Assembly: GCF_022348185.1 (NCBI RefSeq)
Contig: NZ_JAKRFD010000001.1
Span: 372,001 to 436,000 of the forward strand
DNA length: 64,000 nt
Reading direction: 5' to 3'
Source of the DNA: Epibacterium sp. Ofav1-8
GTDB taxonomy: Bacteria > Pseudomonadota > Alphaproteobacteria > Rhodobacterales > Rhodobacteraceae
Shown here one piece after another: positions 45,803-49,687 of the stretch. Made by a program: the position numbers and the translations under genes. Every line of letters begins with the position of its first letter. Within the stretch, counting starts at the first letter, position 1. The notes below the pieces were generated by a model, which was not told the origin of the DNA, made no database searches, and saw only the letters and a list, made by a program, of their open reading frames with translations.

Positions 45803-47062
<1,260 letters not shown>

Positions 47063-47093
47063 TCAGGCAGCTGATGTGCCTGTCCGGATTGAG

Positions 47094-47122
47094 AGGCGTG
47101 GCCGCAGGGCCGCGCCTTTTTT
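47094..47122 (+). terminator. Rho-independent terminator of trpB
   Basis: AGGCGTGGCC / GGCCGCGCCT (one T-G pair), loop GCAG, then six T residues. Confidence 0.88.
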
Positions 47123-47251
47123 CGTTCTTTTTCTGCTGCGGATTAGCAGACAACGGGCCATCCAGGTCAGGGCCGGATCCGGACTTAACACCTTTTTATG
47201 AGAGTTTGAGTAATCCTGAGACCGTTTCGGGTAACGATTTTCGGGTTTGCG

Positions 47252-49687
47252 ATGCAGCAAGACGCCTTACACGCCGTGCAGCAGCTTCAGCTTGCGGCGG
47301 ACCACATGTGGACACTCATCGCCGCGGCTCTGGTCTTGCTGATGCAGCTGGGCTTTCTTCTGGTCGAAGCGGGCATGGCGCGGTCCAAGAACAGCATCAA
47401 CGTTGCGCAGAAGAACATCACCGATTTCCTGATGTCGGTCAGTGCCTTCTATGTGCTCGGCTTCGGGTTGATGTTTGGCGCTTCTTATGGCGGCTGGTTC
47501 GGAACCGATACATTTGCCTTTGAGCAGGCAGATGACTGGCAATACACGTTTTTTGTGTTCCAGGCGGTCTTTGCGGGCACCGCTGCAACAATCATGTCCG
47601 GCGCGGTGGCAGAGCGGATGCGCTACGGTGTCTATGTGGCGGCGGCCCTGTTCATCGGGTTGCTGATCTATCCGGTGAGCGGCCATTGGGCGTGGGGAAA
47701 CCTGCTCAACGGGGACAACGCGGCTTATCTCGCGGACCGGGGATTCATCGATTTTGCAGGCTCGACCGTGGTGCATTCGGTTGGTGCTTGGGTTGCGCTT
47801 GCAGGCATCGTGGTGTTGGGCGCGCGTATCGGCAAATTCAATGCGGACGGAAGTCCGAATGTTCTGCACGGGCACAGCTATGTGCTGGCAACTGCGGGGG
47901 CCATCATTCTCTGGGTTGGCTGGATCGGCTTCAACGGCGGCTCAACCACGGCGGCGAGCCCCGATCTGGCGCATATCGTGCTGAATACCCTGCTGGCCGC
48001 CTGTTTCGGTGGCGTGATGGGGATCTTGACCGGGCGGGTCATCGATCCCGTGAACATTCCGCATCGCCCCATCAACGGTAGTCTCGCCGGGCTGGTCGCG
48101 ATCACAGCCGGCTGTGATGCGGTTTCGGTGCAGGGCGCTGCCGTCATCGGTGCCAGCGCCGGTTTGCTGGTGGTTGTGTCCGAATGGGTCATGGAAAACA
48201 AGCTGAAGCTGGACGATGTGGTCGGGGCTGTTTCGGTACATGGTGTCTGCGGAGCATTCGGCACTGTTGTCTTCCCACTCTTTGCACTGCCGGGAAAGCT
48301 CGCTGCGGGCAGCGTCGGCGCGCAGGTGCTGGTGCAGATGGAGGGGGTCGTGCTGGTCTTTGCCTGGGCGTTTGGGCTGAGCTGGGTGTTCTTCAAGGCA
48401 ATCGATATGGCGGTGGGCATCCGCGTGCCGCGTGAGGATGAGATGATCGGTCTCAACAGCACCGAACACGGGGCAACGCTGGGGACCGGGGGGCTTCAGA
48501 AACAGATCGAGGCGATGACGGAAAACGGGGTCGATCTTACGCGGCGTTTGGATGCGAGCACTGGCGACGAGGCCGCGGAGCTGGCGGCGCTGTTCAATCC
48601 GTTCATCGATCAAGTGCACGATCTGGTGTGTGATATTCATGAAAACGCGCGGCGGATGAAACGGTCGTCGTCGGGGCTGGAAACCCTCTCGGGGGCCTTC
48701 CGGGAGGGCGCAGAGAGAACCGGTGCGCTGACGGGACTGGTCAGCAACAGCTCGACCGAGGTCGCGGGGCAGGCGCGAAACAACCGCGAAATTGCCGAGC
48801 AGATCCTGGCAGAGATGACCCGGATCGCCAGCAGCGCGGAGGGCATGTCAGAAGAGGTGACGGCAGTCTCCGAAGCGATCGCTGAGATGATGAACTCGAT
48901 CAGCCAGATTTCCGGAAACGCCAGCGCAACCAGCGGTGTCACCAAGGAAGCCAACGTTCTGTCGGGAGAGGCGGTCGAGACAATGCAGGCGCTCTCCAAG
49001 GCCTCTGAGGAGATCGAGGCCGTGGTCGGGCTGATCCAGAAGATCACCATGCAGACAAATATGCTGGCCATCAATGCCGCGGTTGAGGCGGCGCGCGCCG
49101 GCGATGCGGGCAAGGGGTTTGCGATCGTTGCCGGGCAGGTGCGCAGCCTGGCTGCGGAAACCGACAAGGCGGCGGAGGAGATCCGCCAGCGGATCTCTCA
49201 TATGCGCAGCCAGTCGGATGATGCGTCGAGCGTGATTGGCGGCATCACGGAGCTGATGCAGTCCATTCATGCCTCCGTCGAAGGGATCACGGCCGAGGTC
49301 GAGAGCCAACGTCGCGCGGCAGGCCGCGTGTCCGAGCGCATGACAAGCGCATCAAACAGTGCGCAAACGGTGACGCAATCCATTCAGGATGTGCAGCAAC
49401 GGGCTGAAACCGTGCGCAGCAACGCGACGCGCAACGAAGAAAGACTGTCGGAGAACGCGAAAACCGCCGGGGACCTGCAGGCGGACGCACGTCAGAGCAT
49501 GCAGCAATCCACCGACCTTGCCAAAGAAGCCAATGCGATCAACACGCTCTCGGCCGAATTGACGACATCGGTTGAACGTTTTGGCCTGCGCGGGGAGGAA
49601 GCGGATCGCGACGCGGACTGGCTGGCACAAGAGGCGCGGCAGGGACGTGTTCCCCCCGGCGATCTGAAGGCAGAGGGCGGCGCCTGA
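47252..49687 (+). CDS. Ammonium transporter (Amt) fused to a methyl-accepting chemotaxis signalling domain
   Basis: An 811-residue fusion. Residues 1 to about 405 are a complete Amt/AmtB channel: gate Phe in FQAVFAGTAATIMSGAVAER, Asp167 in GFIDFAG, twin histidines His175 (VVHSVGAW) and His330 (VSVHGVCGAFGT), and GFNGGS. After a short linker (LNSTEHGATLGTGGL) the C-terminal half is a cytoplasmic coiled-coil MCP domain whose hairpin tip reads ITMQTNMLAINAAVEAARAG and DAGKGFAIVAGQVRSLA at about residues 598-630. No separate sensor domain exists, so ammonium binding or flux through Amt is the likely input for the chemotaxis kinase CheA. The ATG at 47252 lacks a clear ribosome site. No glnK is adjacent. 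Confidence 0.93.
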   Translation: MQQDALHAVQQLQLAADHMWTLIAAALVLLMQLGFLLVEAGMARSKNSINVAQKNITDFLMSVSAFYVLGFGLMFGASYGGWFGTDTFAFEQADDWQYTFFVFQAVFAGTAATIMSGAVAERMRYGVYVAAALFIGLLIYPVSGHWAWGNLLNGDNAAYLADRGFIDFAGSTVVHSVGAWVALAGIVVLGARIGKFNADGSPNVLHGHSYVLATAGAIILWVGWIGFNGGSTTAASPDLAHIVLNTLLAACFGGVMGILTGRVIDPVNIPHRPINGSLAGLVAITAGCDAVSVQGAAVIGASAGLLVVVSEWVMENKLKLDDVVGAVSVHGVCGAFGTVVFPLFALPGKLAAGSVGAQVLVQMEGVVLVFAWAFGLSWVFFKAIDMAVGIRVPREDEMIGLNSTEHGATLGTGGLQKQIEAMTENGVDLTRRLDASTGDEAAELAALFNPFIDQVHDLVCDIHENARRMKRSSSGLETLSGAFREGAERTGALTGLVSNSSTEVAGQARNNREIAEQILAEMTRIASSAEGMSEEVTAVSEAIAEMMNSISQISGNASATSGVTKEANVLSGEAVETMQALSKASEEIEAVVGLIQKITMQTNMLAINAAVEAARAGDAGKGFAIVAGQVRSLAAETDKAAEEIRQRISHMRSQSDDASSVIGGITELMQSIHASVEGITAEVESQRRAAGRVSERMTSASNSAQTVTQSIQDVQQRAETVRSNATRNEERLSENAKTAGDLQADARQSMQQSTDLAKEANAINTLSAELTTSVERFGLRGEEADRDADWLAQEARQGRVPPGDLKAEGGA

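Follow-up and report, generated by a model that had tools for sequence, protein, structure and literature searches.

A candidate ammonium-binding chemoreceptor made from an ammonium channel in Epibacterium sp. Ofav1-8

In Epibacterium sp. Ofav1-8, a single gene joins an ammonium transporter (Amt) to the signaling domain of a methyl-accepting chemotaxis protein (MCP), and comparison with studied relatives makes its product a probable ammonium-binding chemoreceptor made from a repurposed ammonium channel. The Amt half bears most of the NH4+ site of a studied sensor, and hence the protein probably lets the cell steer by ammonium. Judged from sequence, the fusion is a real, conserved and widespread architecture of putative ammonium receptors. 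The host bacterium is probably marine, and the gene lies within a 64,000-nucleotide stretch of its contig NZ_JAKRFD010000001.1 (positions 372,001 to 436,000), referred to here as the window.

The frame is open throughout, from its ATG to its stop codon, and the ATG at position 47252 is the likely start, since an in-frame TGA lies at 47207-47209 and no ATG, GTG or TTG codon occurs from there to the ATG (Table 1). Pfam recognized both parts of the protein, with 328 bits for the Ammonium_transp family (cutoff 23) and 107 bits for MCPsignal (PF00015; cutoff 34.6), confirming the uninterrupted frame from Amt to MCP signaling domain that the earlier note had described, and the gate Phe, Asp and twin His residues that it named are all found (F107, D167, H175 and H330). 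In an AlphaFold2 model built from 45 sequences (mean pLDDT 82, pTM 0.62), the Amt helices are of high confidence, and a weak break at approximately residues 483-500 precedes a long helical stretch, 502-741, that contains the hairpin. The MCP coiled coil had been said to follow Amt directly, but a degenerate HAMP-like connector (approximately residues 413-485) intervenes: the Pfam HAMP family aligns with residues 415-455 at 18.8 bits (E 0.0021), below its cutoff of 25, and in the model a short connector separates helix 413-424 from helix 440-485. Of the 55 rows of our alignment A3, 24 match HAMP at an E value of at most 0.01.

Table 1. Features of the fusion gene and its upstream flank, in window positions
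Feature	Position	Strand	Basis
Amt-MCP fusion gene, 811 aa, single frame	47252..49687	+	ORF list, Pfam
Amt domain, residues 20-409	47309..48478	+	Pfam PF00909; Foldseek best 6eu6, 8qj3, 8qj4
Ks-Amt5-type NH4+ site stretch (Q32, E39, N55, D58, T113, S116)	47345..47599	+	6eu6 alignment, PMC5764959, conservation
C-terminal GLN hinge (N402) and HAMP-like connector, residues 400-485	48449..48706	+	Pfam, model, survey
Chemoreceptor coiled-coil hairpin, residues 502-741; MCPsignal 560-721 inside	48755..49474	+	Pfam, model
Hairpin tip, residues 608-627 (NAAVEAARAGDAGKGFAIVA)	49073..49132	+	receptor comparison
Terminator-like hairpin after trpB, before fusion gene	47091..47120	+	consensus match, 2 found vs 0.5 expected

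The terminator-like hairpin downstream of trpB suggests that the fusion gene may have its own promoter. A pattern scan of positions 47000-47300 detected no sigma-70-like site, and a sigma-54-like pattern occurred at chance level across the whole window (316 found versus 307.5 expected).

The closest solved chains by sequence were 6eu6 (E 1.2e-95) and 8qj3 (E 3.6e-85), compared with 1.8e-41 for the best E. coli AmtB. Foldseek likewise placed 6eu6 first (target-normalized TM score 0.96, 43% identity), followed by 8qj3, 'Receptor Sd-Amt1 (OFF-state)', and 8qj4, '(ON-state)', with E. coli AmtB at 27-30% identity. The nearest structures are thus those of an ammonium sensor and an ammonium receptor, ahead of transporters. 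Pfam detected no periplasmic ligand domain in the fusion protein at E 0.001, and the Amt part stands as the sole candidate sensor found, as the earlier note had argued. The first of these structures, Ks-Amt5, an ammonium sensor histidine kinase of Ca. Kuenenia stuttgartiensis, shares with the fusion the Amt fold, the GLN hinge and a cytoplasmic output on the C terminus, but this output is a kinase rather than an MCP, and, according to its description (PMC5764959), Ks-Amt5 has no HAMP domain. The same study reports two NH4+ ions bound within the membrane at Q24, E31, N47, D50, T51, T109 and T112, a site that assimilatory Amts lack according to its authors. The equivalent residues of the fusion are Q32, E39, N55, D58, F59, T113 and S116, so that five are identical, T112 is replaced by Ser and T51 by Phe, the latter also being found in Sd-Amt1 and most fusions.

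Sd-Amt1, an ammonium receptor of Shewanella denitrificans, shares the QENDTS site (Q32, E39, N55, D58, T113 and S116 in the fusion), the filter residues and the GLN hinge, and its similarity extends into the connector (fusion residues 18-458). Its output domain, which we take to be a diguanylate cyclase, differs from the MCP of the fusion. Fusions of Amt to histidine kinase (HK) or GGDEF/EAL outputs, assigned by motif and mostly from Alphaproteobacteria, have the same receptor site and fall on the same side of the tree but again differ in output domain. E. coli AmtB and the only ordinary Amt of the host genome (L001) share the fold, filter, gate and twin His but have no output domain; moreover, L001 carries A at position 32, L at 58 and S at 113, and its hinge reads GLD, in contrast to the GLN (N402) of the fusion.

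The distribution of these residues was analyzed in 80 Pseudomonadota genomes, from which Amts were collected with the family profile, irrespective of any likeness to the fusion. Comparison covered 131 of the 138 matches (30 loci, one own and 100 fetched), the other seven being the window fusion itself, the C33 match, two G828 fragments and one match each from G809, G829 and G833. C33, the third Amt match of the host genome (E 2e-6), has a frame unlike Amt by eye and was not counted. The whole QENDTS site was present in all six survey fusions (frames longer than 650 aa) and in none of the 125 ordinary Amts, a split that chance would produce roughly once in 6 billion were the rows independent, which they are not. 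For five of these fusions the Amt part alone was fetched, and the sixth, from G433, is the kinase fusion L059. By contrast, the filter, gate and twin-His residues occur in 125/125 ordinary Amts, so that the gate Phe, D167 and the twin His, the residues named in the earlier note, do not distinguish a sensor. Across nine receptors (the six survey fusions, the window fusion, Ks-Amt5 and Sd-Amt1), 83 columns are invariant, and solely Q32, in the ligand site, and N402, in the hinge before the output, are absent from all 125 ordinary Amts; T113 is found in one of the latter and A147 in five. Partial versions of the site do occur among ordinary Amts, 26 of which read AENLSS and 24 of which have E, D and S at positions 39, 58 and 116. 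Loop 5 length, an extension of which had been suggested as a mark in the case of Ks-Amt5, was rejected as diagnostic of receptors: the 24 residues of the fusion, equal to Ks-Amt5 between the columns used, recur in five of the six survey fusions (22 in the sixth) but also in 41 of 50 AE/HE-type ordinary Amts, the other nine having 23, whereas 73 of the 75 remaining ordinary Amts have 19.

In a set of 119 distinct long-frame proteins, biased in that it was collected by likeness to the fusion, N55, D58 and T113 are invariant, and E39 (118), Q32 (117), N402 (118), H175 (117), H330 (117) and S231 (114) nearly so. Row comparisons left out the duplicates L021 and L075, L051 at a contig edge, and the broken L076, L077, L084 and L131; L095, without its N terminus, was scored as a gap at Q32 and E39, and L155 is cut by a contig end. 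Sequence comparison thus suggests that the intramembrane site and the GLD-to-GLN change at the hinge, unlike the pore residues, mark a sensor. From the interpretation put forward in the earlier note, the Amt part as candidate sensor stands, whereas the direct junction does not.

A quick tree of 104 rows (including all 56 MCP, 13 of 25 HK, 14 of 39 GGDEF/EAL and 14 standalone rows), computed without bootstrap or an inferred root, contains a receptor group of 92 rows (SH-aLRT 93), two identical standalone rows among them, and places the fusion in an MCP-only group of 31 (SH-aLRT 97). The tree requires the MCP label to change at least four times on its starred branches, so that output domains have been swapped among Amt fusions. 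The QENDTS site could mark descent instead of function, given that the receptor-type Amts fall together to one side of a branch and that two distinct standalone Amts, L026 and L049 (the latter with GLD), share it. L026, of which row L037 is the same sequence, is one of two neighboring standalone Amts in G141 and combines a receptor-type site and a GLN hinge with no output domain.

Within the genus, the fusion is intact in 3 of 18 genomes, the host included, and broken in 2, that is, in two of five same-genus carriers, which we count against the ammonium-chemoreceptor reading. The two intact copies in other genomes match that of the host at 88% and 80%, and a TAG counted in the latter is its terminal stop. 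Broken copies with in-frame stops and frames shifted between pieces were observed at L084 and L131, from an uncultured Rhodobacteraceae bacterium and Epibacterium ulvae. Samples of the family, order and class, which overlap and each include the host, yielded the fusion in at least 5 of 149, at least 4 of 292 and at least 5 of 385 genomes, respectively, these being lower bounds from 2 to 6 candidates scored per genome. Pursued across genomes, as the earlier note had proposed, the pairing of Amt with MCPsignal proved widespread: among 80 loci kept from at least 547 confirmed matches in a contig scan, 46 encode Amt-MCP, 33 have GGDEF and/or EAL motifs and a single one is cut, and 44 of the 46 have no internal stop (among them L095, without its N terminus), the other 2 being broken. 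Going by record titles, the Amt-MCP loci, many from metagenome-assembled genomes (MAGs), belong to Pseudomonadota, Bacillota, Campylobacterota, Spirochaetota, Myxococcota, Planctomycetota, Verrucomicrobiota, Thermodesulfobacteriota and Bdellovibrionota. Both Pfam families were matched in every row of A3 (54 of the 55 distinct, from several phyla; rows L022, L025 and L055 reach the end of their sequence stretch), and this conservation, together with the intact copies in relatives, rules out a sequencing error joining two genes.

Among the matches listed, the nearest named relative is Tritonibacter mobilis (88%), and two T. mobilis records of approximately 1.2 Mb each in a plasmid collection also carry the fusion. 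A copy 67-68% identical to that of the window is found in Phaeobacter inhibens P88 (L303:5923-8388) on a plasmid typed as conjugative, where it adjoins a recombinase and an IS481 transposase. It is annotated solely as 'amt, ammonium transporter', an instance of the way in which public records can conceal the receptor part.

The host genome (4.76 Mb, 99.99% complete) contains 17 MCPsignal matches, counting that of the window and one fragment, six flagellin-family matches and, in an H-kinase_dim search, a single CheA, around which lie genes for CheR, CheW, CheB and CheD, all of them, including CheA, confirmed by Pfam. Measured against the MCPsignal model, each of the 15 other full-length receptors is a net 14 residues short, and so is E. 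coli Tsr, with 158 residues spanning 172 positions, whereas the fusion lacks none, the simplest reading being one extra heptad per hairpin arm. The profile-based count is used here without a class name, because coiled-coil gaps in pairwise alignments were too noisy to assign a heptad class. Among nine other Amt-MCPs scanned, L083, L039, L107, L108 and L099 lack none, L085 has 7 additional residues, and L104, L023 and L022 have 7, 11 and 14 fewer, so the longer signaling domain appears to be common, not fixed, in the family. At the tip, N608, E612 and R615 are kept, and MQTNMLAIN, D618 and Q629 depart from the other receptors of the genome; these departures and the 14-residue difference in length make it uncertain that the protein couples to the sole CheA. 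The fusion has no match to the strict methylation consensus and two loose matches. In L023, L024 and L040, 3, 6 and 7 extra residues, respectively, are present at the hairpin tip, where receptors normally vary least (EAIRGGNGGGSGQDSAKGF in L040). Approximately 76 kb from the fusion gene, on contig 11, the genome encodes a receptor of 918 aa in which five PAS matches accompany an MCP domain (L168:9381-13671), adjoined by a 509-aa protein with three CheW-domain matches.

Three other explanations were weighed against an ammonium-binding chemoreceptor. A true transceptor, the term used in the earlier note, which would conduct ammonium and signal its flux or transport cycle rather than the occupancy of a separate site, is unlikely. 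The intact filter, gate and twin His are in its favor. According to PMC5764959, Ks-Amt5, a close relative, binds NH4+ and conducts it inefficiently, its pore being blocked by F27, Y30 and F34, which speaks against the transceptor; in the fusion, however, only the first of these is kept, as F35, itself present in 17/17 standalone rows, and the other two positions, V38 and M42, are not bulky aromatics. With one of three blockers, the fusion was not filed with the non-conducting subtype, and pore-blocking residues were rejected as a receptor mark. Against the transceptor, two Amt-MCPs from MAGs, L099 and L104, have lost H175, H330 and the filter residue S231, yet retain E39, N55, D58 and T113; if they still signal ammonium, conduction is dispensable. 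The two group together and, as a single clade, count as one event. This counterpoint is weakened in that they may sense something else, and L104 has Lys at position 32, the amino group of which might, speculatively, stand in for the ion. That the fusion is a chance product, or a dying one without function, is highly improbable. The copies in G796, interrupted by an in-frame TAG, and in G799, which has stops and pieces in different frames, would fit decay, but dN/dS is 0.055 for Amt and 0.065 for MCP against T. mobilis, and from 0.05 to 0.15 for both halves against four relatives, values that are approximate, dS exceeding 1 wherever computed; purifying selection acts on both halves. For the connector, the corresponding values are 0.05, 0.12 and 0.28, with one not computable. 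Of 55 other Amt-MCP rows, 26 (25 distinct) resemble the MCP half more closely than does any of the 15 receptors of its own genome, indicating that the pairing of Amt with MCP is old, and the remaining 29 rows rank among or below these receptors. The order trpB, fusion, ABM is also common to two genera (L083 and L038 of the same genus, L039 of another), with no trpB match at L084, L131 and L303.

There is, finally, a small chance that ammonium is sensed but that the signal feeds something other than swimming via the common array, the receptor instead forming its own cluster or acting through a partner like the triple-CheW protein. Receptors that differ in length tend to function in units of their own, and the fusion lacks none of the residues missing from the 15 other receptors and Tsr; the triple-CheW protein, on the same contig beside a soluble PAS-MCP, would be an available partner. 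Against this, one CheA was found in the genome, and the PAS-MCP next to the triple-CheW protein shares the 14-residue lack of the other receptors. Furthermore, searches of the flanks with five che proteins of the host genome placed che-like genes near just 2 of 47 Amt-MCP loci (L094 and L111; some flanks are short, so that distant genes could be missed), suggesting that partners are rarely encoded beside Amt-MCPs.

Taxis to ammonia occurs in Rhodobacter sphaeroides, and we know of no dedicated receptor for bacterial steering by ammonium. The MCP type of Amt fusion may already appear in a 2009 review by Tremblay and Hallenbeck. Among the papers listed in full-text searches of open-license literature, outside which most subscription journals fall, none dealt with Amt-MCP. 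Within the available parts of PMC8788690, PMC6978683, PMC12918730, PMC11109136, PMC8534201, PMC12363192 and PMC10433425, the Amt-MCP type is not described, and the available part of PMC1183210 mentions neither it nor ammonium. Fusions of Amt to other outputs had already been described, as the earlier note stated: besides Ks-Amt5 and Sd-Amt1, PMC5764959 cites earlier sightings, and PMC10433425 says likewise. The 5TMR (S-component-like) receptors also have a transporter-linked membrane fold and are in some cases joined to MCPsignal, but this fold is other than Amt, which goes unmentioned in the available part of their description (PMC11109136). Amt receptors are thus a known kind, of which the fusion is a chemotaxis variant.

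By analogy with Ks-Amt5, external NH4+ would be recruited at the periplasmic filter (W148, S231, D167) and pass the Phe gate to the intramembrane site, where its binding would alter the cytoplasmic end of the Amt trimer, namely, loop 5 and the GLN-x-x-EH hinge. The HAMP-like connector would then convert this alteration into one of the MCP hairpin, which would control CheA through CheW. Our guess is that ammonium is an attractant, and some of it may also pass through the channel. It is possible, albeit doubtful, that the fusions constitute a chemoreceptor class that senses with a threefold channel in place of a twofold ligand-binding dimer, NH4+ being read by intramembrane binding and not by transport. 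As the hairpins of MCPs associate in pairs, three of which make up a trimer of dimers, two Amt trimers would then supply exactly the six chains of one signaling unit. Neighboring channels would in that case be linked by their receptor tails, and the rods, which exceed the others by two heptads, may assemble into a separate array.

Structurally, the fusion raises the question of how a threefold-symmetric channel can act on receptor rods that function in pairs, and comparison singles out Q32, D58, T113 and N402, not the pore residues, as those to change. Ammonium is a main nitrogen currency of the sea, and the fusion gene is a candidate for the receptor by which bacteria such as this one would steer by it.
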